A stretch of DNA of 26,889 nucleotides from a virus. Position 1 is the stretch's first letter, and the number at the start of each line of letters is the position of its first letter. Shown here piece by piece: positions 2,058 through 15,206 of this stretch. The DNA is taken from positions 1 to 26,889 of IMG/VR virus record IMGVR_UViG_3300031576_000252, one strand, 5' to 3'. A program made the translations under genes and the position numbers. Under the pieces are notes generated by a model. That model worked only from the letters and a program-made list of their open reading frames with translations. It was not told where the DNA came from and ran no database searches.

Positions 2058-2407
2058 CAGGGCACCGCTTCGACCACGGGCATCATCTCGGGTCGGCCGA
2101 GGTAATAACCGGCGGCCACGAGCGCCGTCTGCAGCAGGGCGTCGAAATCGGGCGGATCCGTCTCCGGCAGCTCTTCACGCGCCTGGCAGATGCAGAACCA
2201 CAGGAGAAGATCCGCGCAGGTCGCGACGAAGTCCTCGATGGCACAATCGACGAAGCGGTCCTTGACTCCCAGGGCCTGCGCGTGCTGCAGGAGCCGGCGG
2301 TACAGCTCGGTCTGCCCGAGTTCGTTCGAGGCCTTGAGGCCGCCCCGCACGATGGCGACGGCGGTCTTCACCCGCGGATCGTCGAGATCGATGCCGGAAA
2401 CGATCAT
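2057..2407 (-). CDS. Hypothetical protein, 116 aa, between terminase and portal
   Basis: The product starts MIVSGIDLDDPRVKTAV and is mainly alpha-helical, with a Cys-containing hydrophobic stretch (CADLLLWFCICQ) in the second half and a C-terminal hydrophobic patch. I do not recognise a family. The ATG at 2407 overlaps the stop of the upstream membrane protein gene (ATGA), and its own stop overlaps the portal start (TGATG), so it sits inside a tightly coupled packaging operon. A longer in-frame reading back to 2812 exists but is Arg/Gly-rich and is a shadow of the terminase nuclease gene. A head-assembly or packaging accessory role is inferred from position only. Confidence 0.7.
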   Translation of the reverse strand: MIVSGIDLDDPRVKTAVAIVRGGLKASNELGQTELYRRLLQHAQALGVKDRFVDCAIEDFVATCADLLLWFCICQAREELPETDPPDFDALLQTALVAAGYYLGRPEMMPVVEAVP

Positions 2408-2670
2408 GGAGTGAGATCGCCGCGCGCGGTGGCGGCGTCGGTGTCGCTGTGGACGTAGCGGCTCCCGACGGGCGCCCCCATCCTCGCGGCCGCCACCGCG
2501 TTCTCGAAGCGGCGCAGTTCCACCAGCTCGTCGGGCGAGTCCGCGCAGAGCCGATCCGCCATCCGGGAGAGCTCGCGGCTCGTGTTCCGAAGCGCGAGGT
2601 AGGCGACGAGCGAGCCCGCGCAGGCCGCGAGCCCGAGGAATCCGACCGCGACCGCCGTCACAAGCTCCAT
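2404..2670 (-). CDS. Small protein with one N-terminal membrane segment, 88 aa
   Basis: The product begins MELVTAVAVGF and residues about 4-27 form one hydrophobic segment (Ala, Leu, Val, Gly). It is followed by a charged, probably helical tail (RELSRMADRL) with no recognised domain. The topology is N-in or signal-anchor-like, which cannot be settled here. The start overlaps the last 13 nt of the terminase nuclease ORF and the stop overlaps the next gene by 4 nt. Single-pass proteins in phage late operons are sometimes lysis-related (holin or spanin component), but nothing specific supports that here. Confidence 0.65.
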   Translation of the reverse strand: MELVTAVAVGFLGLAACAGSLVAYLALRNTSRELSRMADRLCADSPDELVELRRFENAVAAARMGAPVGSRYVHSDTDAATARGDLTP

Positions 2671-3404
2671 GCCTCGACCTCCACGGGGTTCTGGGACCGG
2701 CGCCACTCGCCCTGCACCTCCGCGGTGCGTTCCCGGATCTTCTCCCAGAGCTCCATCCGTCGCAAGAGATCGGGGTTCGTGTCGGCCTCGACCGGCCGCA
2801 GCGGCAGCTCACCCCACCGCTCCTTCCGGGCCATCAGGGCGATCCCGAGAGCGAACGCCTGGTCGTCGTGGAAGCCGCTCGGCGCCTCTGCGCGTCCCTT
2901 CTCGTCGAGACGCATCTGCATACACTCCAGCACAGTCGACCTGTCTCGCCAGCGGATGAGCTTCCGAGACGTCACCCGACGGATCTCGTTGATAAGGAGG
3001 GGCCGCGAGGCCGAGGTCGTGAGCCAGCCGTACTCGTTTTTCGGTTTCCTCTCGATCTCGTCGTAGTCGACCCGGGTGTAGAGCCGGTAGTAGTGGGCCC
3101 GGCGAAGCTCGAGGATCACCGAGAGCCCGTAGGTGTTCGACTCGACGGCGATCTCGGCCGTCTTGTAGAGGTGGCCCAGGAGCCGGAGGTGGCGCGCGAA
3201 GACATGGGGCTCGACCTTCGACTGGTAGACGCACACCTGCTCGAGCGTCCAACAATCGAGGACCTGCGCCGCCTGGAAGTCGCCTCCCTCCTTCCCCTGC
3301 GCGACGTCGGCCCCGATGACGTAGGGCCGGCTCTCGAGCGGCTCCCTATAGAGCCTTGTTTGAAGCGCGGACGCGGAGCCTTTCACGTTCGATCGCGAAA
3401 TCAA
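2658..3404 (-). CDS. Terminase large subunit, C-terminal nuclease domain as a separate ORF
   Basis: This 248-aa product matches only the RNase H-fold nuclease half of a terminase large subunit, which cuts concatemeric DNA during packaging. The visible catalytic acids are D33 in VIGADVAQGKEGGDF, E88 in EIAVESNTYG and the D180-D181 pair in FHDDQAFALG. GWLTTSASRPLLINEI is also typical of this domain. No ATPase motifs are present; those lie in a separate ORF at 4178-5026. The start is taken as TTG at 3404 because a GGGGAG ribosome binding site lies 5 nt upstream. A GTG at 3386 is the alternative. The gene overlaps the preceding ORF by 59 nt. The first ~26 residues (ending REPLESRPY) look like the normal interdomain linker, so the break lies between domains and both halves look intact. 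Confidence 0.85.
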   Translation of the reverse strand: MISRSNVKGSASALQTRLYREPLESRPYVIGADVAQGKEGGDFQAAQVLDCWTLEQVCVYQSKVEPHVFARHLRLLGHLYKTAEIAVESNTYGLSVILELRRAHYYRLYTRVDYDEIERKPKNEYGWLTTSASRPLLINEIRRVTSRKLIRWRDRSTVLECMQMRLDEKGRAEAPSGFHDDQAFALGIALMARKERWGELPLRPVEADTNPDLLRRMELWEKIRERTAEVQGEWRRSQNPVEVEAWSL

Positions 3405-3900
3405 CGACGCTCCCCGCCATGCCCTCGGCGCCGCGCCCGCCGTCCCACCGATCGAGGAACATGCCGGCGTACTTCGGCCCCTCGCGACCGCCCTCCATGG
3501 CGCCCGCGAAAACGCGTTCCCAGACGAGGTGAACCTTCGCCCGCATCGCCGGCTCGAGTTTCTTCCGCAGCCACCCCTCGAAGCGGGGATCCTGCGACCA
3601 TTGCTCGACGAGGACGAAGAGGTCGACCTCCTTGAGCTTGAGGATCTCGCGACGCAGAAGGCGCGTGATCCGCTCCTGCCGAGGGGAAGCGACGAAGGTC
3701 TTCTCCGCGTTCGCGCTTTTCGCGTAGAAGTCGATCGCGCCCGGTTCGATTTCGACGCCTCGACCGGCGAGGGCGAGCCGCTTCCTCGCAGCCTCGATCG
3801 CCTCGCTCTCCGCCTCGATCGCCGGCGGCGCCAACGGAGGACCGCCCCCTGGAGTCCCTTTCATGCGCTCGGAGACGGCGAGCTTGTGCGCCTCGTCCAT
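3346..3900 (-). CDS. Hypothetical helical protein (184 aa) lying between the two terminase halves
   Basis: The product starts MDEAHKLAVSERMKG, has a Pro/Gly-rich N-terminal part and then a highly charged helical body (RQERITRLLRREILKLKE, LVEQWSQDPRFEGWLRKK). Its C-terminal half resembles the pattern of small terminase-type or DUF5681-like proteins (EGPKYAGMFLDRWDGG), but that resemblance is weak. I see no homing endonuclease motif (no HNH, GIY-YIG or LAGLIDADG). The ATG at 3900 lies 5 nt after the stop of the 3906-4181 ORF, without a strong ribosome binding site, suggesting reinitiation. Its end overlaps the nuclease-half ORF. A packaging role, perhaps as small terminase, is inference. Confidence 0.65.
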   Translation of the reverse strand: MDEAHKLAVSERMKGTPGGGPPLAPPAIEAESEAIEAARKRLALAGRGVEIEPGAIDFYAKSANAEKTFVASPRQERITRLLRREILKLKEVDLFVLVEQWSQDPRFEGWLRKKLEPAMRAKVHLVWERVFAGAMEGGREGPKYAGMFLDRWDGGRGAEGMAGSVVDFAIERERLRVRASNKAL

Positions 3901-3905
3901 GAGAG

Positions 3906-4181
3906 TCAGGCGGGCGTCGCCTCGGGAAAGGCCGTCGAGGGCTCGTTTCCGGTCGAGCCCTTCCCCTTGCGCCCGGGCGAGATCCCGACCCGCGGGGTCT
4001 CGGCGTGCGTCCCCTCGACGGACTCGTTGCACCCGCTCGCGGGATCGAGGTCGAGCTTCGGGCTCTTGCTCATCCCCTCGTTCGGGTTTCCCGGGGCGGA
4101 TCCGACCGAAATGCGGTTCGGGAAGGGCTTCGAGCCCTCCTCGAAGCCTCCGAGACCGTGGGGCTGCTTCGCGCGCGTCAT
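3906..4181 (-). CDS. Small basic, probably disordered protein (91 aa) after the terminase ATPase half
   Basis: The ATG at 4181 overlaps the stop of the ATPase ORF (ATGA) and is preceded by an AAAGGTG ribosome binding site, which supports translation. The product starts MTRAKQPHGLGGFEEGSK and is rich in Gly, Pro, Ser, Lys and Glu with almost no hydrophobic core, so it is likely unstructured. No family is recognised. It could be a linker or adaptor, or the residue of the event that separated the terminase halves. Confidence 0.6.
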   Translation of the reverse strand: MTRAKQPHGLGGFEEGSKPFPNRISVGSAPGNPNEGMSKSPKLDLDPASGCNESVEGTHAETPRVGISPGRKGKGSTGNEPSTAFPEATPA

Positions 4182-5026
4182 GGCGACACCTTTCTTTCGA
4201 CTTCGATCGTGCGGTCCCGCGTGTGCGGGCCGTGAGTGATCGCCTCCAAGTCTCCGGTCCACAGCGGTTCGGCGCAAGTCTCGAGGGCCTCCTGCAGCGC
4301 GACCCGGTCGAACGCGCCTCGACCGAAGAAGAGGATGAACTTCCCGTAGACCCGGATCTGGCGCTCGTCCTCCGAGGGCAGGTCCCGCTCGAACTGCGCG
4401 ATCTCCTCCTCCCCGAGGATCTTGTTGTCGCGCATCGTCCCGCTGAAGACCCCGATCGCGGGATCCGTCCTCTCGACGAAACCCGGCATGTAGATGCGCT
4501 GGTGGATCCAGGCGAGCCCCGAGACCGGAGTCATCGTGACGAGCTCGGTCCCGCCGCGGTCGATCAAGCGCGCCATGCACTCGGTCCACACGTCCTCCAC
4601 CGGCTCCTCGTCGAACCAGACGTAGTCCCAATCGACCCCCTGGAACTTCTCGCGACCCGAGTCGCAGGAATAGAGATCGATCGTGGAGCCGTTCCTCAAG
4701 TAGATCCGTCTCTCGTCCTGTCGGAACCGGCGGATTTCCTCGCCCGGGAGAAACTTGAAGAGCTTCTCTTCCGTCACCCGCTTGCTCATCTTGAAGTCGA
4801 GCGCGACGCATCCGATCTTCGCCGGCGTCGTCGCCCGCCACCCGGGAAGCGCGGGACAGATCCCGAACGCGCGAGAGGCCGTCGCGTAGGCGCCGAGGTC
4901 GCTCTTCCCCCACCGGTTCGGCCCGATCCCCCAGACGTGCTTCTGTTTCCGCACAAGCGAGGCTTCGAGCATCGCCTGCTGGTGCTGGAAGGGCTCCCAG
5001 GTCAGGAAGGGATGTCCTTCGTACAT
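4178..5026 (-). CDS. Terminase large subunit, N-terminal ATPase domain as a separate ORF
   Basis: This 282-aa product is the ATPase (packaging motor) half of a terminase large subunit. Visible motifs are an adenine-binding region (WEPFQHQQAML, residues 10-20), Walker A GPNRWGKS (35-42, with K41), Walker B DYVWFDEE (134-141, with D139 and E140) and the coupling motif TMTP (164-167). After residue about 230 comes FFGRGAFDRVALQEALE, which in intact terminases leads into the linker and nuclease domain. Here the ORF stops after IEVERKVSP. A full-length TerL would be roughly 450-550 aa. The nuclease half is encoded about 770 bp downstream, beyond two small ORFs. The start is ATG at 5026; no strong ribosome binding site is visible, and the upstream ORF ends 14 nt before it. 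Confidence 0.88.
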   Translation of the reverse strand: MYEGHPFLTWEPFQHQQAMLEASLVRKQKHVWGIGPNRWGKSDLGAYATASRAFGICPALPGWRATTPAKIGCVALDFKMSKRVTEEKLFKFLPGEEIRRFRQDERRIYLRNGSTIDLYSCDSGREKFQGVDWDYVWFDEEPVEDVWTECMARLIDRGGTELVTMTPVSGLAWIHQRIYMPGFVERTDPAIGVFSGTMRDNKILGEEEIAQFERDLPSEDERQIRVYGKFILFFGRGAFDRVALQEALETCAEPLWTGDLEAITHGPHTRDRTIEVERKVSP

Positions 5027-5280: not shown

Positions 5281-5317
5281 CTCGGGTCGGGGCGACGCGC
5301 GAACCGGGAAGGCCGTT

Positions 5318-5467
5318 TCAGAACTCCCGCGCCCACGCGCCGAATCGAACCCGGGCCGCTCGCGCCGTCCGGATCGCCACGCCCCACGGCACCAGCACTC
5401 CCCACACGAGCGGGAAGAGCAGGCTCCGCGCGATCCAGTACGCGAGCGGCCGGGCCGTTGAAATCAA
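5318..5467 (-). CDS. Putative 49-aa membrane microprotein
   Basis: From a TTG at 5467 the frame encodes a hydrophobic segment with Trp (YWIARSLLFPLVWGVLVPWG) followed by a basic tail (RTARAARVRFGAWAREF). This looks like a one-pass membrane microprotein. The frame is open further upstream to a GTG at 5638, giving 106 aa, but that part is less protein-like. An ATG-initiated frame in this region (5519 to 5181) is a competing reading. It would be the first gene of the leftward packaging operon below the promoter at 5671-5699. Confidence 0.38.
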   Translation of the reverse strand: MISTARPLAYWIARSLLFPLVWGVLVPWGVAIRTARAARVRFGAWAREF

Positions 5468-5670
5468 GTGGCCCCGCCGCCGCCAGACCTCCGGGACCGA
5501 CGGCCGCGCAGATGACCATGCGATAGATCCCGCGGACGCAACCGGAAGCCTTCTTCGAACGGGGCCGTCGATCAGCCTACCAAGCTCCCCGGGCCCGTTG
5601 CAAGCGGCCAACACGCAGACCCGGACAAGGAGCCCCACCGCCCGACGGGCCCGGGGAGGAACACACCCAC

Positions 5671-5699
5671 AATATCTAGGGTCTTGCGGCGACCTTCAA
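5671..5699 (-). promoter_or_regulatory. Sigma70-like promoter for the leftward packaging block
   Basis: On the minus strand TTGAAG (5699-5694) and GATATT (5676-5671) are separated by 17 bp. The -10 matches 4 of 6 and the -35 matches 4 of 6 consensus bases. It lies in the divergent gap between the packaging genes and the plus-strand gene at 5742, and points toward the packaging block. Confidence 0.5.
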
Positions 5700-5741
5700 G
5701 GGTCTGTAGGTTCCGCGACACTCGTGGGACAAGCCTCACGG

Positions 5742-5984
5742 ATGCGCCGCCTCTTCGACGCGAGAGAGGATGTGCTCTCCGCACCGAAGATCCCCGTCGC
5801 TCACGAGGTCGACCTCGACTCCCCTCCCGACCTCCCGCTCGGCGAGAACGTCGAGATCCGAGCCGACCGGTCGAACGCACTCTCGCCGCCCTCATGGACG
5901 GTGGACTGGAACGCGAGGCAAGGACCGACAGGCGCACCGAAGTTCCCCCACGGCCCACCGGGGCCCCGCGCGCTGGTAGGGTAA
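5742..5984 (+). CDS. Hypothetical protein, 80 aa
   Basis: The product starts MRRLFDAREDVLSAPK and is acidic in the middle (HEVDLDSPPDLPLGENVE), ending in a Pro/Gly-rich basic tail. Most third codon positions are G or C, as in clear genes of this genome. No ribosome binding site is visible before the ATG, and an in-frame GTG lies 18 nt upstream. No family is recognised. It is the first plus-strand gene of the 5.7-7.5 kb segment. Confidence 0.45.
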   Translation: MRRLFDAREDVLSAPKIPVAHEVDLDSPPDLPLGENVEIRADRSNALSPPSWTVDWNARQGPTGAPKFPHGPPGPRALVG

Positions 5985-6002
5985 TCCTCCCTGACCGTAC
6001 TG

Positions 6003-6016
6003 GCCCGCCGGCGGGC
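6003..6016. repeat. Perfect 14-bp palindrome GCCCGCCGGCGGGC
   Basis: The two 7-bp arms are perfectly complementary with no spacer. It is located just after the 80-aa gene. It could be a protein-binding site, or part of a terminator lacking a T-tract. By chance such a palindrome is uncommon, but the local GC content is very high. Confidence 0.5.
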
Positions 6017-6253
6017 TCTGTAGGGGAGGCAACGGGACGCGCGAAAGACCGCTCGACGCCGGAGGGGACTCGCCTCACACGCCGGGCAGCGCCGATCAAC
6101 GCTGACCCTGCCCTCCACCCGCGAGCGGAAGAACTGGATCGGGCGAAGCCGATGCGCTTCCACCCCCCTTCCCGCACCGGAAAGCGACACCGCCCCCTAC
6201 TGGATGTCGCTGGGGACTCACCTGCCGGGACTGGTTCGACAGGCCTCCCACTC

Positions 6254-6280
6254 GATCCCCCCTGCCCGGAAGGGGGGATC
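6254..6280. repeat. Perfect hairpin GATCCCCCC / GGGGGGATC, 9-bp stem
   Basis: Arms at 6254-6262 and 6272-6280 pair perfectly around a 9-nt loop. No T-tract follows on either strand, so it is not a standard intrinsic terminator. The arm GATCCCCCC recurs at 6305-6313 and 7305-7313. Confidence 0.6.
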
Positions 6281-6353
6281 GTACCCCCGGGTCCTGTTTC
6301 GATAGATCCCCCCAACCAGGTACACTTCGCGCCCCTCACGGGGCTTGAGGACC

Positions 6354-6551
6354 GTGGAACCCGAAACCCGTACCCCCCGCTACATCGTCTGCGTCTGCAA
6401 ACACGGCGAAACCCGCCACTACCCCCGCCGCCAGGGCCCCTGCTCACGCTGCCCCTGCCTCGCCTACCACCCTCGCCCCTGGACCCGACCCCTCTTCCGC
6501 GGTGTCGTCCCAGACCGATGCTTCGAGCCCGACCCCCACGAGGCCCCATGA
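6354..6551 (+). CDS. Cys-rich zinc-binding microprotein, 65 aa
   Basis: The pattern C-x-C-x-H near residues 13-17 followed by CSRCPC about 15 residues later, then a Y-x-P element, matches a small zinc-binding protein type often seen in actinobacterial and phage genomes. The start is taken as GTG at 6354, which has GAGG just upstream; a TTG at 6345 is in frame. The stop overlaps the next gene by 4 nt (ATGA), implying coupling. The function is unknown; metal binding is inferred from Cys/His spacing. Confidence 0.6.
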   Translation: MEPETRTPRYIVCVCKHGETRHYPRRQGPCSRCPCLAYHPRPWTRPLFRGVVPDRCFEPDPHEAP

Positions 6552-7147
6552 AACGAGCTAAGCTCCTCCACATGCGCCCCCCCTCTACCTCCGAGTGGAA
6601 CGCCATCGCCCTCGCCATCCTCCGCGCCTCCTTCTCCTCCCTCGACAACGACGACCCCCGCGTCCCACTCACCCGCTCCAACCTCGAAACCCTCGCCCCA
6701 GACCGATCCACCCTCGACCGCATCCTCGACGCCGAAATCCGCCACGGCGCCTGGACAGGCTACTCCTCCTTCCTCCTCGCCCTCTGCAAAACCGCCTTCG
6801 CCGAACTCGCCCCCTCTTCCGCAAAAGACCCCCGCGCACTCCTCCTCGGCGCCACCCTCATCGCGGGCATGTGCGCCCAGGATCCCTCCATCATCCCATC
6901 CATCTTCCCCTCTCCTCCAAAAGGGGGGGACGCCCGCCCGATCCGCCTAGTTCCCACAGCCCTCGACACGGAGGTCTCTCCATGCGCTCCCTCGGTCCTT
7001 TCTGGACCCGTGGAGGGCGGAAAATCCGCTCCCACTCCAGGGCCGAACACGCCGTCATCCGACAACTCCTCGACGAAGGCCACGAGGTCTGGAACAACGG
7101 ATGGCCCGACCTCGTCGCCCTCCGAGATGGAAAGATCCGCTTCATAG
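6548..7147 (+). CDS. Hypothetical protein, 199 aa, coupled to the Cys-rich microprotein
   Basis: The ATG overlaps the previous stop. Residues 1 to about 130 look like a helical protein (EWNAIALAILRAS, LLALCKTAFAELA, LLLGATLIAGMCAQD). The final ~55 residues are Ser/Thr/Pro-rich and overlap the VRR-NUC gene in another frame by 166 bp, so they may be unstructured or constrained by the nuclease frame. No family is recognised. Codons are extremely C-rich (runs of CTC, GCC, TCC), unlike most genes in the window. Confidence 0.55.
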   Translation: MKRAKLLHMRPPSTSEWNAIALAILRASFSSLDNDDPRVPLTRSNLETLAPDRSTLDRILDAEIRHGAWTGYSSFLLALCKTAFAELAPSSAKDPRALLLGATLIAGMCAQDPSIIPSIFPSPPKGGDARPIRLVPTALDTEVSPCAPSVLSGPVEGGKSAPTPGPNTPSSDNSSTKATRSGTTDGPTSSPSEMERSAS

Positions 7148-7542
7148 AGATCAAGCGAGACGACCAGGCCCAGGGCTACCTCAAGCCCAGACAGCGCGCC
7201 ATCTCTTCCATCCTCGAGAAGTACCTCGGGATCACCGTAGAGGTCCTCCGACCCTCCGAGCTCCTCGGGGGGGGTGCCCAGCGGCAGGGCGGGATCCGTC
7301 CTCGGATCCCCCCGAGAGCGATCTCCCCCGAAGCGAGCGGCCTGAGCGAGCGAAGGGGCCTCGAGGAGCGGCGCCCCGCCGCGACGCAGGACCTCCCTAC
7401 CTCCACGCTCGAGCGCGCGGTCGACGAACTTACGGAGCCGCTCCCACCTCGCCCTTCGGTTCCGCCGGCACGTTCGCCGTCATCCCCGAAGGAGCTGCCT
7501 CCGGCTCCTTCCGCTCCGCGCTCGGCGTCGACACCGCCTTGA
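6982..7542 (+). CDS. VRR-NUC-like PD-(D/E)XK nuclease
   Basis: A GGAGGT ribosome binding site precedes the ATG. The N-terminal ~95 residues carry the VRR-NUC pattern: SRAEHAVIRQLLDEGHEV, then the catalytic D in GWPDLVALRDG, then E-x-K in FIEIKRD, then a Gln-containing helix (LKPRQRAISSILEKYLG) and a final strand. VRR-NUC proteins are stand-alone, magnesium-dependent structure-specific nucleases common in phages, usually linked to recombination or replication. After residue about 95 comes a long Pro/Arg/Ser-rich tail. Its last 112 bp overlap the minus-strand gene 7430-7744, so the tail may not be conserved. Hairpins at 7264-7316 lie at the domain/tail boundary. Confidence 0.82.
   Translation: MRSLGPFWTRGGRKIRSHSRAEHAVIRQLLDEGHEVWNNGWPDLVALRDGKIRFIEIKRDDQAQGYLKPRQRAISSILEKYLGITVEVLRPSELLGGGAQRQGGIRPRIPPRAISPEASGLSERRGLEERRPAATQDLPTSTLERAVDELTEPLPPRPSVPPARSPSSPKELPPAPSAPRSASTPP
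7264..7316. repeat. Overlapping alternative hairpins inside the VRR-NUC gene
   Basis: CTCGGGGGG (7264-7272) pairs with CCCCCCGAG (7308-7316). A second hairpin, GGGATCCG (7291-7298) with CGGATCCC (7303-7310) and a TCCT loop, uses part of the same 3' arm. The two structures therefore exclude each other over 7308-7310. This could affect transcription or translation, or be a by-product of GC-rich repeats. Confidence 0.45.
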
Positions 7543-7744
7543 AGAACTTCGCGAACGCCGGTCCCGGCACCACGAACTCACAGCTCTCCCACCCACGATC
7601 AGGATCCGTCGGCTCGTACCCCATCATCCAGTCGCCGTTCTCGCACCAGCGGGTACTAGCACCCACCTCCACGTTCCGCGCTGCCCCACACTCCACCGCC
7701 CGCATCGGACTCTCGAGTTCGTAGTACCCTTCGTAGTACCCCAT
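7430..7744 (-). CDS. Hypothetical protein, 104 aa, antisense to the VRR-NUC tail
   Basis: An AGGAGGT ribosome binding site sits 7 nt before the ATG at 7744. The product starts MGYYEGYYELESPM and is Tyr- and Gly-rich, with Cys residues (VECGAARN, WCENGDWMMGYEP) in the first two-thirds. It ends in a Pro/Ala-rich tail. No family is recognised. Its 3' 113 bp overlap the end of the VRR-NUC gene on the opposite strand. It is the only clear minus-strand gene between the packaging block and the plus-strand operon. Confidence 0.65.
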   Translation of the reverse strand: MGYYEGYYELESPMRAVECGAARNVEVGASTRWCENGDWMMGYEPTDPDRGWESCEFVVPGPAFAKFFKAVSTPSAERKEPEAAPSGMTANVPAEPKGEVGAAP

Positions 7745-7819
7745 CGCGTCGACCTCCTGTTCTGTTCGACCGAAGCGCCCACCACCCTACACTACCACCC
7801 CTACCCCGCGCCAGACCTC

Positions 7820-7866
7820 GGGGCCCCCCACAGGCTTTTAGAGCCCGTGACGCGAGGTGGGGCCCC
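7820..7866. repeat. Two GGGGCCCC palindromes, 39 bp apart
   Basis: Perfect octamers lie at 7820-7827 and 7859-7866, the second just before the weak ATG at 7867. They could pair with each other or bind a protein. Confidence 0.4.
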
Positions 7867-8061
7867 ATGTCATCCCAGAGCGCGGGCGCCGAGGACGGCA
7901 CCCCCCCCTTCACGCGGGGGGGGCGGTCGAGTCGAGCGGATGGGGGCGCGCCCGTCCGGCCGCGCCAAGAGGAGGAGCGGGCGCACGAGGCGTTATGCGG
8001 GCCGGTGCAAGCGAGCGCAAGTCAAGGCAGGGCAAGGGGTAGAGATTCCAGCGTCCGATAA
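7867..8061 (+). CDS. Possible 64-aa polar protein (weak)
   Basis: GAGGTG lies 7 nt before an ATG. The product (MSSQSAGAEDGTPPF...) is Arg/Gly/Ala-rich and probably disordered. Third-position GC is high in the first two-thirds and falls toward the end. The frame runs through a C8/G8 hairpin. It may be chance coding capacity in a GC-rich spacer. Confidence 0.25.
   Translation: MSSQSAGAEDGTPPFTRGGRSSRADGGAPVRPRQEEERAHEALCGPVQASASQGRARGRDSSVR
7901..7923. repeat. C8/G8 hairpin
   Basis: Eight C (7901-7908) and eight G (7916-7923) pair perfectly around the loop TTCACGC. This would be a very stable stem, but without a T-tract. Confidence 0.55.
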
Positions 8062-8351
8062 TGGTATGTATGTTGTACGCGACCTAGCTCCGCGTCGCGC
8101 CCCTTTCTCACTGCCGCTCGACCTCGGCTCCGCTCTACCCTCGGTCTAGGATGTTGCATTACCGTACGCCTACGAAGTTGCAATGCTATGCATCCTGCGG
8201 CGCATGATCGCGTCGAGCTAGACCCTCGGCACTCTCGCTCTCTGGCCTCTACTCGATGGGGAGAGCCATAGGTTTTACCGATAGGGTGGATAGGTAGGGC
8301 CGATGGGCTTTCGGGGATTTCAGGGTCGGGGGAGGCATAGAAAAAAAGTTC
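8062..8351. other. Non-coding, relatively AT-richer spacer upstream of the plus-strand operon
   Basis: No ORF with a ribosome binding site is visible. The stretch is the least GC-rich of the neighbourhood (for example around 8055-8080 and 8155-8190). It contains GTTGCA at about 8154 and 8176 and purine-rich direct repeats built on GATAGG and GATGGG at about 8279-8310, ending in an A-tract at 8340-8347. It could hold regulatory sites or an origin; there is no direct proof. Confidence 0.4.
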
Positions 8352-8380
8352 TTGACGTCGGATTTCCTCGTCTCTACAAG
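8352..8380 (+). promoter_or_regulatory. Sigma70-like promoter for the plus-strand operon
   Basis: TTGACG (8352-8357, 5 of 6 matches) and TACAAG (8375-8380, 4 of 6) are 17 bp apart. An A-tract immediately upstream (8340-8347) could act as an UP element. The first gene starts about 60 bp downstream. Confidence 0.7.
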
Positions 8381-8441
8381 GGGGGTCGTGAAGCGACTGG
8401 ACTACCGAACGCGCCGCTCCGGCGGCGGGAGGCTAGGCACG

Positions 8442-8639
8442 ATGGCGACCATGGATGAGACTGACCTCAGGATTGCGGAGTTCCTCGCCTCGCGCGGGGC
8501 GCACTTCGCGGCACAGAGCGCACTGAAGACGCTCCTGTACATGCGGGACGGGTCATACCGCGATCCGGTGGATGCGGCGGAAGACGCAAGGATCGTGTAC
8601 GAGCTGCTTCGGGGCCGTTGCACGGCGGCAGGAGGCTAG
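8442..8639 (+). CDS. Hypothetical protein, 65 aa, first gene of the plus-strand operon
   Basis: GGGAGG precedes the ATG at 8442. A longer frame back to 8352 would overlap the promoter and is not used. The product (MATMDETDLRIAEFLASRG...) is a compact helical protein with an acidic start and a basic C-terminal helix (YELLRGRC). No family is recognised. It ends in a GGAGGCTAGGC cassette in which the stop codon and the next gene's ribosome binding site are fused. Confidence 0.7.
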   Translation: MATMDETDLRIAEFLASRGAHFAAQSALKTLLYMRDGSYRDPVDAAEDARIVYELLRGRCTAAGG

Positions 8640-8641
8640 GC

Positions 8642-8932
8642 GTGACGAATCAATCTGTCGAGATGAAGTGTGCTTGCTCCTCTGGCGATCAGGCTGGTCG
8701 GACGTGGCTCCAGTCCGAGGAACATGCCTACACATACGGCGGTGCACAGGTCCGGCGAGGACGCGCGATCTACCCCGATGGCAAGGTTCGTGCAGTCCGT
8801 GCCGGAATCCCGGACACGTTTTTCACGGTCCCTGCCCACGGAAGGATTGCAGGGCGGTACGTTTCGGGCTACCTAACGCACAACGAGAAGGGTTGGAAGT
8901 TTCACTTCGCCTCGCGAGCGGCGGCGAGCTAG
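8642..8932 (+). CDS. Hypothetical protein, 96 aa
   Basis: The start is GTG at 8642, 2 bp after the previous stop, with GGAGG overlapping the upstream C-terminal codons. The N-terminal part has two close Cys residues (MKCACSSG) and the rest is beta-rich (RAIYPDGKVRAV, GRYVSGYLTHNEKGWKFHF). The pattern suggests a small soluble fold of unknown function. The stop lies in a GAGCTAGGC cassette. Confidence 0.65.
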   Translation: MTNQSVEMKCACSSGDQAGRTWLQSEEHAYTYGGAQVRRGRAIYPDGKVRAVRAGIPDTFFTVPAHGRIAGRYVSGYLTHNEKGWKFHFASRAAAS

Positions 8933-8934
8933 GC

Positions 8935-9141
8935 ATGGAAGACGAGGAGACCGACCTCGACCGTCTCCGGCGCGAGGCGGGTTTCGGCCGCCTTCGGCGC
9001 TTGCGTCTTGCTCCTGGCGAGCGCGCGCCGGGGCTTCCATTCGACGGCGGCGCGGCGGTGAAGGCTGGGGACGGGACGAACGAGGCGAGATTGCGGACGG
9101 AAGGACTACCCTTCGACGAGACGACGACGAAAGGAGATTGA
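8935..9141 (+). CDS. Hypothetical acidic/basic protein, 68 aa
   Basis: The ATG at 8935 is 2 bp after the previous stop. The N-terminal helix is highly charged (MEDEETDLDRLRREAG). The centre is Arg-rich, and the LPFD element occurs twice, about 24 residues apart (GLPFDGG and GLPFDET). No family is recognised. It may be a short linear-motif protein. Confidence 0.55.
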   Translation: MEDEETDLDRLRREAGFGRLRRLRLAPGERAPGLPFDGGAAVKAGDGTNEARLRTEGLPFDETTTKGD

Positions 9142-9145
9142 GACC

Positions 9146-9409
9146 ATGCAGGAACCCGACCAGGATCTATCGTTCGTTGATCTCCTCGCCTGGTGCTTTC
9201 GGTTCTTGGACGCACATCCGGACGCGCTCCTCTTCGTCAAGTGGACATGCGAGGGCTGCGGGGATCGCGCGACCTCGAACGAGCCGAACGCGATCCACCT
9301 GCTCGGCTACGAACACGCGGCGTGCGGCAGCATCAGCCATCCGAAGAAGTTCGGGGTGGTCGCCGCGATTTCGCGTGCTCGAACCGTCGGTTTTCCGTCG
9401 AACAACTGA
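9146..9409 (+). CDS. Hypothetical zinc-ribbon-like protein, 87 aa
   Basis: AAAGGAG precedes the ATG, in a GAGACCATG start context shared with 9878. The N-terminal part is an acidic helix (DLLAWCFRFLDAHPD). The middle has CEGCGDRA followed ~19 residues later by YEHAACG, a plausible Cys/His zinc site. The product ends in a basic tail. The function is unknown. Confidence 0.65.
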   Translation: MQEPDQDLSFVDLLAWCFRFLDAHPDALLFVKWTCEGCGDRATSNEPNAIHLLGYEHAACGSISHPKKFGVVAAISRARTVGFPSNN

Positions 9410-9423
9410 AAGGAAAGATGACC

Positions 9424-9855
9424 ATGCAACCCCGCCGATCCGCGCGGGCTCCCGTGTCCTGGGACTTTTCCCGGGTAGAGGACTTGAACAATTTCGTGGC
9501 GGTCCCCAACGGAACCCATCCTTGCGTAGTGCACGAGATGAAGAGGACCGCGGCGCGGGACGGTTCGGACCGATGGTGGATACGGTGGGTTGTGACCAAC
9601 GAGAGTCCGTGGGCGGGCCGTACCGCCGCGTGGGACTCGCTCACGTGGAACGAGCGCGGAATGCGGCGCGTGAAATGGGTTCTTGGTCGGCTCGGCTTCG
9701 ACGTGGCGGGCTGCATCGAGTTGGCGCCGAATGACCTCCTCGGGCGCAAGGCTCGCGTGACCGTGTTTGCCGAAGAATTCATCAATCGCGCGACGGGCGC
9801 GCGCACGATGCGCTCACGGGTGCCTTTTGCCGGGTACGAGAAGATCGAGGAGTAA
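9424..9855 (+). CDS. DUF669-like phage recombination-associated protein, 143 aa
   Basis: The product has the DUF669 plan: an N-terminal DFSRVEDLNN with a proline-containing strand (VAVPNGTHPCVV), a central RWVVTNESPWAGRTAAWDSLTWN, a helix (RRVKWVLGRLGF), then LLGRKARVTVFAEEF and RSRVPFAGYE. DUF669 proteins sit beside annealases and resolvases in phages and are considered single-stranded-DNA-binding-like. The start at 9424 gives good spacing from AAAGGA; an ATG 6 nt earlier is possible. A second protein of this type lies on the minus strand at 15207-15647. Unlike that one, this copy lacks an acidic -PF tip. Confidence 0.72.
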   Translation: MQPRRSARAPVSWDFSRVEDLNNFVAVPNGTHPCVVHEMKRTAARDGSDRWWIRWVVTNESPWAGRTAAWDSLTWNERGMRRVKWVLGRLGFDVAGCIELAPNDLLGRKARVTVFAEEFINRATGARTMRSRVPFAGYEKIEE

Positions 9856-9877
9856 CCTCCAACAGAAAGGCGAGACC

Positions 9878-10060
9878 ATGCAGCGATTTCAAGTCCGAAT
9901 GGTCCTGCGGAAAGAGACCCCGGGGACGCACGTTTACACGGAGCCGGTCCACGATGACGGGAGCCCGCCGAAACTGAGGACACTCTACCTCCCGAAATGG
10001 GTGCTCGGCACGACGCCGCCGCCGGCGGTGTTGGTGACGGTCGAGGAAGCGAAGGCATGA
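9878..10060 (+). CDS. Hypothetical protein, 60 aa
   Basis: AAAGG precedes a GAGACCATG start. The product is beta-rich (MQRFQVRMVLRKE, LRTLYLPKWVLG, AVLVTVEEAKA). No family is recognised. Its stop overlaps the next start by 4 nt. Such small strands-only proteins often accompany DUF669-type genes, but the role is unknown. Confidence 0.65.
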   Translation: MQRFQVRMVLRKETPGTHVYTEPVHDDGSPPKLRTLYLPKWVLGTTPPPAVLVTVEEAKA

Positions 10061-10392
10061 GCGACCGGGCGCTTCTGGGAACTTCGACCGGGTACGAATG
10101 GGAACTTGACCCGAACTTCCCCGAGGGTCGGGCTCGTCCCAAGGATCTCCCGTCGTCGCAATTCGCGCCCGATCTCTCGATCAACGGGATCTCCATGCAC
10201 GTCGAAGCGTACAAGGTCCGATGGTGGCGAGACGGCGAACTCGGGCGCATCCTGGTCGCCTGCGACGATAGTTTCGAGCGGGAGGTCGCGGCGATCTGCG
10301 ACCTCGAAGGCTCCGACTGTTGGCCTCAAGTTCACGAGCTTCCCGGCCTTCCCGGGGAATGGCTCGTGGTCGCCTTCCCCTATGGGGACTGA
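10057..10392 (+). CDS. Hypothetical protein, 111 aa
   Basis: The ATG overlaps the previous stop (ATGA). The product is soluble with alternating strands (HVEAYKVRWWRDGELGRILVAC) and ends EWLVVAFPYGD. It is acidic and has two Cys in the centre. No family is recognised. The last 11 bp overlap the next gene. Confidence 0.65.
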   Translation: MSDRALLGTSTGYEWELDPNFPEGRARPKDLPSSQFAPDLSINGISMHVEAYKVRWWRDGELGRILVACDDSFEREVAAICDLEGSDCWPQVHELPGLPGEWLVVAFPYGD

Positions 10393-10606
10393 CGGGCGGC
10401 GAATCGAGTTCGAGGGAGAAGCCTACGAGGTTCGGCCGTGCGGCTGCTGGCACACGTTGAAGGGCCATCGGGTCGAGGCGTGCGCGGCGCACCGGGGGCA
10501 AGCGCCCGGCCTACCGAGGCGGCTCCTCCTCTACGCCGAGGTGGCAGTAGCCTTCATGCTCGCGGCCTGCGCCTGGATCTTCTTCCGGCGTCGGCTCAAG
10601 CCCTAG
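10382..10606 (+). CDS. C-terminally membrane-anchored small protein, 74 aa
   Basis: The product starts MGTDGRRIEFEGEAYEV and has a Cys/His stretch (PCGCWH, CAAHRG) near residues 20-40. One C-terminal hydrophobic segment (LLLYAEVAVAFMLAACAWIFF) is followed by RRRLKP. The tail-anchor layout would place the N-terminal domain in the cytoplasm. It is the last gene before the terminator. Its 3' 96 bp overlap the resolvase-like gene on the other strand. The role is unknown. Confidence 0.65.
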   Translation: MGTDGRRIEFEGEAYEVRPCGCWHTLKGHRVEACAAHRGQAPGLPRRLLLYAEVAVAFMLAACAWIFFRRRLKP

Positions 10607-11155
10607 ATCCCCCTCCCGGCCCGCTTCCTCGAACGGGGGAGGCGGGCTCTTTCTTTCGGCGTCCAGACGCACCCATTCGAGCGCGCCCCTCGGAGCGTTC
10701 CCGATGGTGACGCACCACCGACCAGGCTGCATCGCCCCGAGGATGTCGAGGGAGAAGCCGCGCACTCGTTCCGGCCGATCAACGAGAACCCCCGTCAGCA
10801 CCTCGAAAACGGCGTCCGCCCGAGCGGGAACGTTGTGACTGACGCCTGCTCGCAGCCCCTTCACCCACGCGCGTACTGCTATTGTCACGGGTCCTGCAAC
10901 GGGTCCGGGATGACCTCCAAGCGCGACGAGCTTCCTTTTCCAAACCTCTCGAAGGTGAAACCTCGCGGCGTCGAGCCAGCGAACATAAGACTCGGGGCGG
11001 GCTAGGTAGGGGCGCCCGATGGTTCGACCGCACGCGGGGCACCACTTCCGGCTGCGGCCTTGCGGCTGCCACACGAGCTTTCGATGGGGTGAGCACGCAA
11101 GGGCGAGGGGGACCCAGAGGGTAAGGGGGGGAGTGAATCGTGGATCTCCTTCCAT
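10511..11155 (-). CDS. RusA-like Holliday junction resolvase (putative)
   Basis: RusA proteins cut Holliday junctions during phage recombination and DNA maturation. The central 100 residues follow the RusA plan: YVRWLDAARFHLREVWKRK, then a strand pair (VTIAVRAWVKG), then ARADAVFEVLTGVLVDRPERV, which corresponds to the D-x-D-N...D.L.GV..DD..V signature although the first aspartates are partly replaced. The N-terminus carries a zinc-ribbon-like CPACG with upstream Cys/His. The C-terminal ~45 residues are Pro/Glu-rich and overlap the convergent gene and terminator. The start is ATG at 11155, with GAGG 8 nt upstream, inside the preceding gene (154-nt overlap). It is the last gene of the leftward early operon. 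Confidence 0.55.
   Translation of the reverse strand: MEGDPRFTPPLTLWVPLALACSPHRKLVWQPQGRSRKWCPACGRTIGRPYLARPESYVRWLDAARFHLREVWKRKLVALGGHPGPVAGPVTIAVRAWVKGLRAGVSHNVPARADAVFEVLTGVLVDRPERVRGFSLDILGAMQPGRWCVTIGNAPRGALEWVRLDAERKSPPPPFEEAGREGDLGLEPTPEEDPGAGREHEGYCHLGVEEEPPR
10619..10657 (+). terminator. Intrinsic terminator of the plus-strand operon
   Basis: GCCCGCTTCCTC (10619-10630) pairs over 12 positions (two G-U) with GGGGAGGCGGGC (10636-10647) around the loop GAACG. It is followed by TCTTTCTTTC. It lies inside the 3' part of the minus-strand resolvase-like gene. Confidence 0.88.
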
Positions 11156-11511
11156 TCGGTGAACCTCGATTCCTTGAGAAGCGGAGACCAGACACGCCAG
11201 GGCTTCCTATCCCCTTTTGCGTGGACCTCGCACTCAATCCCGTAGCCCAAAAACTCGTCGACCCGCTCTCCCATGCGCCGGCGCCGGGCTGCCACGCCGT
11301 TGAGCGTGCTCACCGAGACGAGGAGCGGAGCTGTTCCGGCCCGGAAAACCAACAGGTCGGCGACACCAAAGAAGTCGGCAGAGTACACGAAGAACTTCTC
11401 GGGTCCAGCGTACCGGTACGCCTGGGCGGCCCGGAGGACCAGGGCGCCGGCGCGCTCGAAGGCGTCCTGCCGTTCTTTCTCGAGCCGGTTCCCCTTGCGA
11501 CGTGTGTTCAT
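11002..11511 (-). CDS. PD-(D/E)XK-fold resolvase-like protein lacking the canonical lysine
   Basis: The N-terminal ~115 residues follow the archaeal-resolvase-like/phage endonuclease plan: RKGNRLEKERQDAFERAGALVLR, then FFGVADLLVFRAG (the catalytic Asp position), then LLVSVSTLNGVAARRRRM. The position expected to hold E/Q-x-K reads S-V-S, so the canonical Lys is missing and only basic residues further on could substitute. It may be a non-catalytic DNA-binding relative, or a family with a migrated catalytic residue. The last 50 residues are Ser/Pro/Gly-rich and overlap the next gene. ATG at 11511. Confidence 0.6.
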   Translation of the reverse strand: MNTRRKGNRLEKERQDAFERAGALVLRAAQAYRYAGPEKFFVYSADFFGVADLLVFRAGTAPLLVSVSTLNGVAARRRRMGERVDEFLGYGIECEVHAKGDRKPWRVWSPLLKESRFTEWKEIHDSLPPLPSGSPSPLRAHPIESSCGSRKAAAGSGAPRAVEPSGAPT

Positions 11512-11526
11512 GTCAGAAGCGCGTCA

Positions 11527-11736
11527 TCAAGAAACCTCGTCGACTCGGCCGGTGCCGCCGCACTCGGCGCACCGCTCGCGCCGGTAAATCGGAGACGGAG
11601 GATCGCTGGCGCGATCGTAGCCGACGTACTCGTCCACGCGGCCCTCGCCGTAGCACGTCTCGCATGTGCCGCACCACCGCTCGTGCTCGCCGGTGGGGCC
11701 GACCGCCCCGGCACAGGTGCAGCGCGTCGCGCTCAC
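11527..11736 (-). CDS. DnaJ-type CxxCxGxG zinc microprotein, 69 aa
   Basis: Two CxxCxGxG-type knuckles are visible: CETCYGEGRV and CAECGGTGRV, spaced about 28 residues apart, plus an N-terminal C-x-C. This is the zinc-centre pattern of DnaJ central domains, here without a J-domain or peptide-binding domain. The GTG at 11736 overlaps the upstream stop (GTGA); a GTG at 11742 is also in frame. It is likely a small metal-binding adaptor. Its target is unknown. Confidence 0.65.
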   Translation of the reverse strand: MSATRCTCAGAVGPTGEHERWCGTCETCYGEGRVDEYVGYDRASDPPSPIYRRERCAECGGTGRVDEVS

Positions 11737-11855
11737 AGCCACACCGCCGCCGCGATGAGGGCGGCGAAGAAGAGGTAGTAGCCGAGGAGCCGCAGGAGTC
11801 CCCGCGAGAGCCCGGGCTTGCGGTCGAGGGGAGAGTTCACGCCGTGCTCGATCAT
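11733..11855 (-). CDS. Membrane microprotein, 40 aa
   Basis: GGAGGA lies 6 nt before the ATG. The product starts MIEHGVNSPLDRKPG and ends in a hydrophobic C-terminal segment (LLGYYLFFAALIAAAVWL). 4-nt overlaps join it to the genes on both sides. It is too short for functional assignment. Confidence 0.6.
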   Translation of the reverse strand: MIEHGVNSPLDRKPGLSRGLLRLLGYYLFFAALIAAAVWL

Positions 11856-12211
11856 CGAGAATCCTCCATCAGTAGGCGTATTCGAGTCGACTGCTCGACC
11901 TCTATCTCGGCAGCGTCTAGCTCCTCCCGTCCGCACTCGCAGCGCCAGGGCCGCTTCTCGCCGCCCCGCCAGCGCGTCCCGTCGGGGTCGCGGGACTTGG
12001 GGCAGCGCCCGTCATGGCGCTCGACGCACGAGAAGACGCCTCGATTCTGGTCGCAGTGCTGGTAGGCGACGAAGAAGCGGCGCAGGGCCGCGAGTTCGGT
12101 ACACTCTCGCGCCTGCCAAGAGGTCGATCCTTCGCGGACGCAATCCGGGCATGCGACCATCGTCGCATTGACCGACACGTCGAAATTGTGCTTGGAACAG
12201 ACTAGGCTCAT
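11852..12211 (-). CDS. Cys-rich hypothetical protein, 119 aa
   Basis: Cys pairs appear at the N-terminus (VCSKH, CPDC), in the middle (HCDQNRGVFSC, RCPK) and near the C-terminus (WRCECG), consistent with two or more zinc sites. The C-terminal helix is acidic and then basic. The ATG overlaps the previous stop (ATGA). The family is not recognised. DNA, RNA or protein binding through zinc is possible. Confidence 0.65.
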   Translation of the reverse strand: MSLVCSKHNFDVSVNATMVACPDCVREGSTSWQARECTELAALRRFFVAYQHCDQNRGVFSCVERHDGRCPKSRDPDGTRWRGGEKRPWRCECGREELDAAEIEVEQSTRIRLLMEDSR

Positions 12212-12579
12212 GCCTTGCCCTCCCGGATCTCGGCCGCGCGGATGCGGATCTTCGTACCGATCTCGGCATGGCAGAATCGACCACCCATCGTTCTACAAGT
12301 CGGATTACACAGATGGTTCTGACACACGAGGTATGCCTCCTCCATCGCCGCCACTGCCGCCTCGCGGGCGATCTCACGCAACGCCGAGCGCATCCGGCCA
12401 AGCACCTCGTCGGCGAGCCTGAGGCAACGAGTCTCTTCGTCGAGATCTTCATAGGGTCCAAGTGCGCGGGAGGGAATCTCTCGGCCTCGTTCCCGACAGG
12501 CGGCGAGATAGACCTCGTGGCATTGGGCCGGAGTCAAAGCGTGCGCGCGGGCGATCTCTTCGATGCGCTTCGCGTTCAT
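12208..12579 (-). CDS. Hypothetical helical protein, 123 aa
   Basis: The product starts MNAKRIEEIARAHALTPAQC and is almost entirely helical and charged (RLADEVLGRMRSALREIAREAAVAAMEEAY). A Cys cluster follows near residues 86-103 (VCQNHLCNPTCR, FCH). The longer frame to 13002 is a shadow. 4-nt overlaps lie on both sides. The family is unknown. Confidence 0.65.
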   Translation of the reverse strand: MNAKRIEEIARAHALTPAQCHEVYLAACRERGREIPSRALGPYEDLDEETRCLRLADEVLGRMRSALREIAREAAVAAMEEAYLVCQNHLCNPTCRTMGGRFCHAEIGTKIRIRAAEIREGKA

Positions 12580-12782
12580 CTCGTCGCTTCCTCCAGGCGC
12601 TCGTACGTCGCCTCGAACAGATCCGGCTTGATCGGCCAGGTGTCGTTCGTCACAGGATCCCGGAGAACCCAATCGCCCGCCTCGGCCCGGACGCGGCCGT
12701 GGGCGGTAGTGACCAACTCGGCGACCTCGACACGACGGGCAAGGACGACGATCGGCTTCTTCCGGACGCGGATCTCGTTCAC
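12576..12782 (-). CDS. PGDYG-type small phage protein, 68 aa
   Basis: The product starts VNEIRVRKKPIVVLA and contains AEAGDWVLRD followed by IKPDLFEATYE. This is the pattern of a widespread small phage/bacterial protein (RKKPVxVEA ... PGDWI ... PDIFxxTYE) with no established function. The GTG at 12782 is preceded by AAGGAGG and overlaps the previous stop (GTGA). Confidence 0.7.
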   Translation of the reverse strand: MNEIRVRKKPIVVLARRVEVAELVTTAHGRVRAEAGDWVLRDPVTNDTWPIKPDLFEATYERLEEATR

Positions 12783-13030
12783 GGTGCCTCCTTCGCCAAA
12801 AGCCACTTGCCGCGGTCCAGGGATTCGATCGCCGCCAGAGAGACGGCTGCGACCTGCACCAGTTCCTTCCGGTACTCCCCGAGTGCACTCTCAAGCACCG
12901 CCTTGGCCGCCTCGCCAGTTTCCTCATGGAGAATAGCGAGCCACTTGTAGGGATGGTGATTCTGCTCGCCCCACTTGGCGTCTTGACGGTGCCGTTCGTC
13001 AACCACGGCTTTCGTGAGTTCCTCGTTCAC
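12779..13030 (-). CDS. MazG-like NTP pyrophosphohydrolase-type protein, 83 aa
   Basis: The pattern DERHRQDAKWGEQ, then EETGE (E36-E40) and a second helix YRKELVQVAAVSLAAIESL, matches small phage MazG-like all-alpha NTP pyrophosphatases. These hydrolyse (d)NTPs to NMPs and may adjust nucleotide pools or (p)ppGpp-related signals. The second metal motif E-x-x-D is not clear here (E-x-x-x-V), so activity is uncertain. The GTG at 13030 has AAGGAGG and overlaps the previous stop. The C-terminus KEAP encodes the next gene's ribosome binding site. Confidence 0.7.
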   Translation of the reverse strand: MNEELTKAVVDERHRQDAKWGEQNHHPYKWLAILHEETGEAAKAVLESALGEYRKELVQVAAVSLAAIESLDRGKWLLAKEAP

Positions 13031-13251
13031 GTTGCCTCCTTGCTTTTCCGGAACGTCTTGGCCTTGGGACAGTCCGCAAAATGGTTGAGGAGGTGGGCCG
13101 TGTACGGAGCGCGGTTTCCCGTCCTCAGTATCACCCACCAGATCGGTTCGCCGCAACCTCGGCAAGCCCCCGCGTCCCCGACGAGGCGAAGGAAGAGGGC
13201 GATGTTGGACCGCAGCCACGCGGCGTCGTCGGGTCGAACGATGTCGCTCAC
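13027..13251 (-). CDS. Zinc-binding small phage protein, 74 aa
   Basis: The product starts VSDIVRPDDAAWLRSNI and has CRGCGEPIWWV followed ~25 residues later by HFADCPKAKTFRK. This C-x-x-C / H-x4-C layout occurs in many phage and actinobacterial proteins that probably form a zinc ribbon. The GTG at 13251 is preceded by AAGGAGG and overlaps the previous stop. The function is not established. Confidence 0.7.
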   Translation of the reverse strand: MSDIVRPDDAAWLRSNIALFLRLVGDAGACRGCGEPIWWVILRTGNRAPYTAHLLNHFADCPKAKTFRKSKEAT

Positions 13252-13499
13252 GGGGCCTCCTTCCTGATCGCGGCGCGGAGGAGGGCCGCACCTTCCGGTT
13301 GCGAGAATCGCTCGCTCGACCCATCGAGCACCTTCCCGCACGCTTCCACCGCCTCGTCGAGGGCGGTGCGGAACTTGCGCTGAAAGATTGTGCGTAAACG
13401 CGCGAGCGATTCTTCGGCTGTCGGGACGGCGTTCCAATCAAGACAACCCTGTGCCGCAGCGTCACATGCGATCCTGTCCAGTTCCTCGCGGAGGTTCAT
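13248..13499 (-). CDS. Hypothetical helical protein, 83 aa
   Basis: The product starts MNLREELDRIACDAAAQGC and is composed of charged helices (RTALDEAVEACGKVL, GAALLRAAIRKEAP). No family is recognised. 4-nt overlaps lie on both sides. The last codons AAG GAG GCC double as the ribosome binding site of the next gene. Confidence 0.6.
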   Translation of the reverse strand: MNLREELDRIACDAAAQGCLDWNAVPTAEESLARLRTIFQRKFRTALDEAVEACGKVLDGSSERFSQPEGAALLRAAIRKEAP

Positions 13500-13726
13500 G
13501 TCGGCTCCGTCTTCTTCGGAGGCCACGGCTCCTTCTCGATCGCAGTGAGTGATCGCTGGACACACTCCTTTATGACCATGGCTATTGTACAGCGGTGCCT
13601 CGACGCTTCGTTGCGCAACCGCACGCACAAAGCGCCGACGAAGTTTATGTGAATGGTCGTAGTTTCCGATTCAGGCGCAGCGTCCTTCCACGGATTGTAC
13701 CCTCGGAATCTCTTGTTCTGTGTCAT
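13496..13726 (-). CDS. Ribbon-helix-helix (Arc/CopG-like) DNA-binding protein, 76 aa
   Basis: A strand TTTIHINF is followed by two helices (LRNEASRHR and TIAMVIKECVQRSL), the ribbon-helix-helix plan of Arc/CopG-type regulators that bind DNA as dimers through the strand. The N-terminal 20 residues are a basic arm (MTQNKRFRGYNPWK). GGAG precedes the ATG at 13726, and 4-nt overlaps flank the gene. It may regulate this operon or another phage promoter; no target is visible. Confidence 0.7.
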   Translation of the reverse strand: MTQNKRFRGYNPWKDAAPESETTTIHINFVGALCVRLRNEASRHRCTIAMVIKECVQRSLTAIEKEPWPPKKTEPT

Positions 13727-14052
13727 GTGTTCTCCTTCTCGATCTCGGCGGCGATCACGAAACCGCATCGTTCCTCCTTTTGCCGATATTCATCACGCGG
13801 TACTGAACATCGCCAGCAATAGTGCGCCCGCGCGATCTCCACGCACCGACGGCGCTCCGTGGAGGTCGCCTTCATCGAGTCTCTCACCTCCTCCAGCGTC
13901 ACGGTGAGGCCAGCGCGCGCCTCTGCTTCCCCGCGACCGATACAGCGGACGCAGACTGACACCGGCTCCAACCTCGTGCCATCGCTGTAGCCCTTCCGGT
14001 AGGCGTCCTCGGGGCTCATCCCTTTCCACGGGCTTGTTTCGATGTCGGTCAT
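13723..14052 (-). CDS. Hypothetical protein with two Cys-x-x-Cys motifs, 109 aa
   Basis: The product starts MTDIETSPWKGMSPEDAYRKG. C-x-x-C motifs occur at VCVRCIGRGEAEA and HYCWRCSVPRDEY, about 45 residues apart and flanking a charged helix (EEVRDSMKATSTERRRC). A single zinc site is plausible. GGAGG precedes the ATG, and both ends overlap neighbours by 4 nt. The family is not recognised. Confidence 0.65.
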   Translation of the reverse strand: MTDIETSPWKGMSPEDAYRKGYSDGTRLEPVSVCVRCIGRGEAEARAGLTVTLEEVRDSMKATSTERRRCVEIARAHYCWRCSVPRDEYRQKEERCGFVIAAEIEKENT

Positions 14053-14405
14053 CGTTTACCTCCGTGCTTCGACTTCATGTGCCGAGCAAGGTTCGGAAAC
14101 GTGCGGTGACACCTCGGACAGACCCCGCGTTCGATTCTCCGCTCGATCGCCATGCGCTTGTTCCGCTCGACCACGACCTCTCCCTCGGCGCGTGCGAGAT
14201 CCGCCGTGCGCGATGCGAGTTGCTTTCGCAAGCGCTCAACCTCTGGCTCCGTGTAAGTCATTGCGTGCCCATTCGGGCAGAAGAACGAGTCCGTACCGTG
14301 AGCGCGCAGGTACTTATTGTAATCCAGCGGCATTGCGAACATTATGCCGCAGACGATACAGACATCGCTCGATAGCGTCACAGACTCGTTGAACGTCGTC
14401 GTCAT
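14049..14405 (-). CDS. C2H2 zinc-finger phage protein, 118 aa
   Basis: The N-terminal zinc-ribbon-like part has CIVCG (C16, C19) and CPNGH (C43). A charged coiled-coil follows (about residues 53-90). The C-terminus is a C-x2-C-x9-H-x4-H finger (CPRCHRTFPNLARHMKSKH). This ribbon + coil + terminal finger layout recurs in phages and suggests a DNA-binding dimer. AAGGAG precedes the ATG at 14405, with 4-nt overlaps on both sides. Confidence 0.72.
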   Translation of the reverse strand: MTTTFNESVTLSSDVCIVCGIMFAMPLDYNKYLRAHGTDSFFCPNGHAMTYTEPEVERLRKQLASRTADLARAEGEVVVERNKRMAIERRIERGVCPRCHRTFPNLARHMKSKHGGKR

Positions 14406-15048: not shown

Positions 15049-15188
15049 GCTTCCTCCTCGCGTGGGACTCGTCCACCTCCTGCGCACGTCTCACACTCCC
15101 TCCACAACAACAGGGGCACCCCGGCCTTCGACCAACCCTCGTATTCGACCTCCCCCACGCCGTTGCAGTCGGGACACTCTCGCGTCAT
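15045..15188 (-). CDS. CxxCxGxG zinc microprotein, 47 aa
   Basis: A very short gene with two DnaJ-type knuckles, CPDCNGVGEV and CETCAGGGRV, separated by about 26 residues, like the 11527-11736 product. The ATG at 15188 lies downstream of an AAAGGAG site at roughly 12 nt. A competing ATG at 15195 is better spaced but opens a short out-of-frame ORF. Its stop overlaps the next start by 4 nt, which supports it. Confidence 0.65.
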   Translation of the reverse strand: MTRECPDCNGVGEVEYEGWSKAGVPLLLWRECETCAGGGRVPREEEA

Positions 15189-15206
15189 CGGTCATTCCGT
15201 CTCCTT

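Follow-up and report, generated by a model that had tools for sequence, protein, structure and literature searches.

The large terminase subunit (TerL) is normally one protein that pumps DNA into the phage head and also cuts the DNA. It is described as a single two-domain motor protein and serves as a universal single-gene marker. The first-pass annotation of the DNA described here likewise took a single polypeptide to be the normal state of phage TerL. This does not hold in general, as split TerLs have been published for cultured phages and we found more of them. The published cases are the Arthrobacter cluster AY phages BillyTP, Tiff81 and BlueShadow (PMC11920828, PMC12820723), and the records of BillyTP and Tiff81 indeed contain consecutive ATPase and nuclease genes.

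The annotated phages closest to the one described here are podophages of the Jasmine type (Jasmine, DS1 and Shocker), which provide the nearest annotated relatives of its ATPase, its portal and its probable small terminase (TerS), the subunit that would recognize the DNA. The TerL of these phages is continuous, TerS lies upstream of it, and its nuclease part has no detectable similarity to the nuclease of our phage.

The window, i.e. the whole stretch of DNA that was analyzed, is the IMG/VR record IMGVR_UViG_3300031576_000252 of an uncultivated phage and is 26,889 bases long. The record is classed as linear and hence is probably a fragment. In it, the ATPase and the nuclease of TerL are separate, complete genes with two other genes between them.

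Organization of the terminase locus

The genes relevant to this analysis are all located on the minus strand:

4178..5026, minus strand: TerL ATPase subunit, 282 aa, with the complete N-terminal motor domain and the first part of the hinge
3906..4181, minus strand: ORF2, 91 aa, no assigned function; coding signal, low complexity, likely disordered
3346..3900, minus strand: ORF3, 184 aa, TerS-like, probable small terminase, from an hhalign match to the Jasmine-type TerS family
2658..3404, minus strand: TerL nuclease subunit, 248 aa, with the last part of the hinge and the complete RNase H-like domain
2404..2670, minus strand: predicted membrane-like protein, 88 aa, in the interval between the nuclease and the portal; called on its coding score
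2057..2407, minus strand: protein of 116 aa upstream of the portal, no assigned function; called on its coding score
3..2057, minus strand: portal protein of the P22/Jasmine type, cut by the fragment end (PF16510, E = 3.2e-17)

The gene order is thus likely to be ATPase, a gene of no assigned function, TerS, nuclease, two small genes and portal. The portal matches those of the Jasmine group with an E-value of about 1e-33, and no family match was found for the 88-aa protein.

The ATPase and nuclease ORFs are in different frames and about 770 nt apart. The stop codon of the ATPase overlaps the start codon of ORF2 in an ATGA, the gap between ORF2 and ORF3 is 5 nt, and ORF3 overlaps the nuclease ORF by 59 nt, so that the closely packed chain of ORFs described in the first-pass annotation is borne out by the coordinates. 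The two intervening ORFs are both coding in their annotated frames. In fact, each of the four ORFs shows a coding-type GC3 and codon signature that is best in its annotated frame, and their third-position GC and codon bias match those of the other genes of this phage. For ORF2, GC3 is 0.90 and the codon log-odds are also of the coding type. No promoters or terminators beyond chance expectation were detected inside the four-gene interval. A fusion of ORF3 with the nuclease by a +1 frameshift in the 59-nt overlap was considered and set aside, since the nuclease has its own start, a TTG, with a ribosome-binding-like GGGGAG about 5 bases before it.

Several features lie elsewhere in the record. 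Positions 17821-26400 are occupied by a minus-strand ORF of 2859 aa with ddrB-ParB and helicase regions and a DarB-like antirestriction PHROG match. The long stretch from 5300 to 15200 holds weak, short ORFs on shifting strands, in contrast to the clear coding signal of its flanks, and its GC skew is strongly negative at 6-7 kb. A 33-bp tandem repeat of 2.2 copies (26453-26524) is found near the fragment end.

Both halves of TerL are complete domains

The ATPase motifs can be read directly from the translation: Walker A is GPNRWGKS with K41, Walker B is WFDEE with D139/E140, and the coupling motif is TMTP. The residue numbers given for this half in the first-pass annotation were right, and its description as complete agrees with a match to PF03237 (Terminase_6N) that is above the cut-off (E = 3.8e-10). 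All the hallmarks of a TerL ATPase domain, namely the Terminase_6N match, Walker A, Walker B and the coupling motif, are hence present. Despite this clear Pfam result, a PDB sequence search with the ATPase as the query returned no terminase match. This ORF is the single ATPase match in the 26.9-kb record, and no second TerL ATPase was found there.

The nuclease half, which had also been called complete, has the RNase H-like fold and the three acidic metal ligands of a TerL nuclease domain. Its residues D33, E88 and D180/D181 are invariant in a diverse alignment of 20 sequences. Its sequence matches the nuclease of RB49 gp17 (E = 3.8e-6), and its predicted fold (mean pLDDT of 82) superimposes on residues 381-562 of T4 gp17 with a Z-score of 22.7 and an rmsd of 2.2 over 177 residues. 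The match to PF17289 (Terminase_6C) is below the cut-off (E = 0.0025). The classical TerL has both domains on one polypeptide, whereas here they are found on separate ORFs.

ORF3 is a probable small terminase

ORF3 has no direct Pfam or PHROG match, no match in annotated phages by tblastn and no relatives in viral contigs. Its single-sequence structure model is all-helical and, with a pLDDT of 51, too poor for a structure search. We built a profile from 42 ORFs located upstream of TerL in Jasmine-type loci, which came from a limited fetched set. Three of the four tested members of this family match PHROG terminase small subunit families. Comparison of ORF3 with this profile by hhalign gave a score of 32.9 (P = 1.7e-4, hhalign probability 49%), and the match lies mainly in the C-terminal half of ORF3. 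Random ORFs, 120 and then 500 of them, did not exceed a score of 21.6, and 200 shuffled versions of ORF3 did not exceed 22.1. The 23 other ORFs of the window that were tested scored at most 16.6, and none of them is TerS-like. ORF3 is therefore probably TerS, as judged from this profile match, and the earlier suggestion that the 184-aa middle protein could be the small terminase gains support from the separation of its score from the controls. ORF2 has no Pfam or PHROG match.

Split and continuous relatives among uncultivated phages

Viral contigs whose ATPase resembles that of the window usually encode TerL in a single ORF, so the split in the window is derived. A direct continuous counterpart of the split pair exists: the single-ORF TerL at L080:2104-3771 joins an ATPase of the window's type to a nuclease of the window's type. 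On the other hand, one uncultivated clade is split throughout (L015, the near-identical L016/L173-L175, L019, L172, L176, L177, L178, L261 and L264). Its members have an ATPase of about 310 aa and, directly after it, a nuclease of about 250 aa, followed by a short protein, the portal, a scaffold-like protein and a capsid-like protein. This clade, which we call the L015 clade, shares with the window the ATPase type, the nuclease type and a split in the same hinge, but its two genes are directly adjacent, with neither TerS nor ORF2 between them. In one member (L176:4609-6666), the Walker A motif of the split-TerL ATPase gene is interrupted by an intein-like insert (GNRIGK|C...GN|SDQGAY) that has a Pfam match to a homing endonuclease.

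A further split-TerL lineage, with overlapping genes, is represented by L252:1115-2658 and L253:2614-4157. Its nuclease is about 34% identical to that of the window over the match, and the two start at almost the same hinge position. However, its ATPase has no match to the window-type ATPase profiles, and its ATPase and nuclease genes overlap. Upstream there is a probable TerS, separated from the ATPase by two small ORFs. Podophage ctLwi270 (MW202554.1; L010:2317-4854) also has a split TerL, which belongs to a different family; here, an ATPase ORF with an intein-like insert is followed by a 62-aa ORF and then by a separate nuclease ORF. The occurrence of natural splits in several lineages indicates that TerL splitting has recurred.

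Searches of viral contigs for close relatives of the ATPase, the nuclease, the portal and ORF3 found none, and neither did a search of genome contigs with the ATPase profile. The same four-gene order was not found in any relative, and the arrangement therefore rests on one assembly.

The cut lies in the hinge

In an alignment with continuous relatives, the cut falls within the hinge, which is bounded on one side by the last strand of the ATPase (FILFFGRGAF) and on the other by the first conserved nuclease strand (RLYREP..YVIGADVA). The L015 clade is cut about 15-20 residues earlier. As counted on an alignment of a limited set of fetched loci, the hinge residues at the two edges of the window's split sum to 58-64. 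Continuous TerLs have about 32-51 such residues, and another split clade has about 56. The first-pass annotation had proposed that the linker was duplicated or kept on each side. The summed length does not support a duplication; the hinge is shared out between the two proteins.

The two halves differ in their closest TerL type. The ATPase, like the portal, is closest to the Jasmine type, and the nuclease is closest to another type. It is 32-35% identical to the nuclease domain of the phiARM81mr/douglas-type TerL, which is continuous and has a different ATPase. L080 and the L015 clade show the same pairing of ATPase and nuclease, which suggests a domain exchange at the hinge. The split probably arose at the hinge too, as it did in several other lineages of phages. 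Trees built from the limited set of fetched loci do not distinguish one split shared by the window and the L015 clade from two separate ones, and the AU test does not reject a single clade for either half (p = 0.62 and 0.316). TerS and ORF2 could have come to lie between the halves either by insertion between adjacent halves or by rearrangement of a TerS-containing block. A search for flanking repeats that would mark an insertion gave only weak, chance-like pairs.

A proposed two-chain packaging motor and its alternatives

We think it likely that the large terminase of this phage is made as two chains which reassemble non-covalently, with the ATPase, the small protein of no assigned function, the TerS-like protein and the nuclease encoded on one message. 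The minus-strand message would be polycistronic, and the overlapping or near-touching start and stop codons of the four genes would link their translation. The ATPase chain would assemble on the portal as the ring that pumps the DNA. The nuclease chain would bind to the ATPase chain non-covalently via the interface that joins the two domains in an ordinary TerL, possibly with the help of TerS. The nuclease would then cut the concatemer at the start and at the end of packaging. Co-transcription, translational coupling, assembly and division of labor are thus what we infer for this gene set.

The main support for a two-chain TerL comes from cultured phages with split TerLs, which are viable, and the existence of other natural two-gene TerLs (the L015 clade, L252/L253 and cluster AY) strengthens this reading. 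Its main difficulty is that the separated domains of T4 gp17 keep their own activities but lose translocation without the hinge (PMC9958956). This same result, that translocation in T4 requires both domains and the hinge, speaks against a motor in which the ATPase alone pumps, while the nuclease acts as a separate cutter outside the translocating ring and joins in only when packaging is initiated or terminated. A cut in the hinge could nevertheless allow the subunits to act at different steps, and both PMC11476376 and PMC9958956 cite a study that, by its title, has TerL grip DNA through the ATPase domain. We regard such a motor as possible, if somewhat unlikely. A three-part terminase, in which TerS, perhaps together with ORF2, stands in for the covalent hinge as a bridge between the separate ATPase ring and nuclease, seems to us quite unlikely. 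As the record is probably a fragment, a full TerL could also lie outside it.

Other explanations would do away with the two-chain TerL altogether. If an intron or another RNA-level insertion occupied the interval, the mature TerL would be one polypeptide. Introns are known in terL, e.g. in ICP1 (PMC10448857), and the split sits in the middle of the gene, as an intron would. However, the search with group I and group II covariance models proposed in the first-pass annotation, run with Rfam on the interval, gave no match at the gathering threshold or at a relaxed one. Moreover, the interval is coding throughout, ORF3 is TerS-like and not a homing endonuclease, and in the other split clades the directly adjacent genes leave no room for an intron, all of which makes this explanation extremely improbable. 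An assembly chimera of an ATPase and a nuclease from two different phage genomes would account for their different closest TerL types, and only one record is known. Yet composition and codon use are uniform over the four genes, their boundaries fall at the ATGA and at start/stop overlaps that are not expected from a random join, and the same pairing of types recurs within a single ORF of L080 and in two neighboring genes of the L015 clade. We consider a chimera very unlikely, and we hold the same view of a broken terminase in a decaying or defective element. In favor of a broken terminase, TerL is usually continuous and the fragment may not come from a viable phage, but each half has kept all its catalytic residues, its reading frame and its codon bias, the overlapping starts look organized, and as much of the portal as the fragment contains is intact.

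Comparison with described terminases

Natural two-chain TerLs in several lineages, cultured phages included, imply that the covalent coupling of the two domains is dispensable, and they provide material for asking how force and cutting are coordinated. A TerS-like protein encoded between the halves suggests a possible source of a substitute link. For genome annotation, it is of note that a TerL half encoded on its own is easily annotated as hypothetical or mistaken for a fragment.

Similar to the cluster AY phages, the window contains both TerL domains in two genes of what appears to be one operon. In cluster AY, however, the halves are consecutive and TerS lies upstream, whereas in the window ORF2 and ORF3 are located between the halves. 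The cluster AY halves have no detectable sequence similarity to those of the window, and a separate origin of that split is therefore likely. In summary, a split TerL is in itself already known. What is new here is that the probable TerS and another gene lie between the two halves, an arrangement seen in no other case in our survey, which was not exhaustive.
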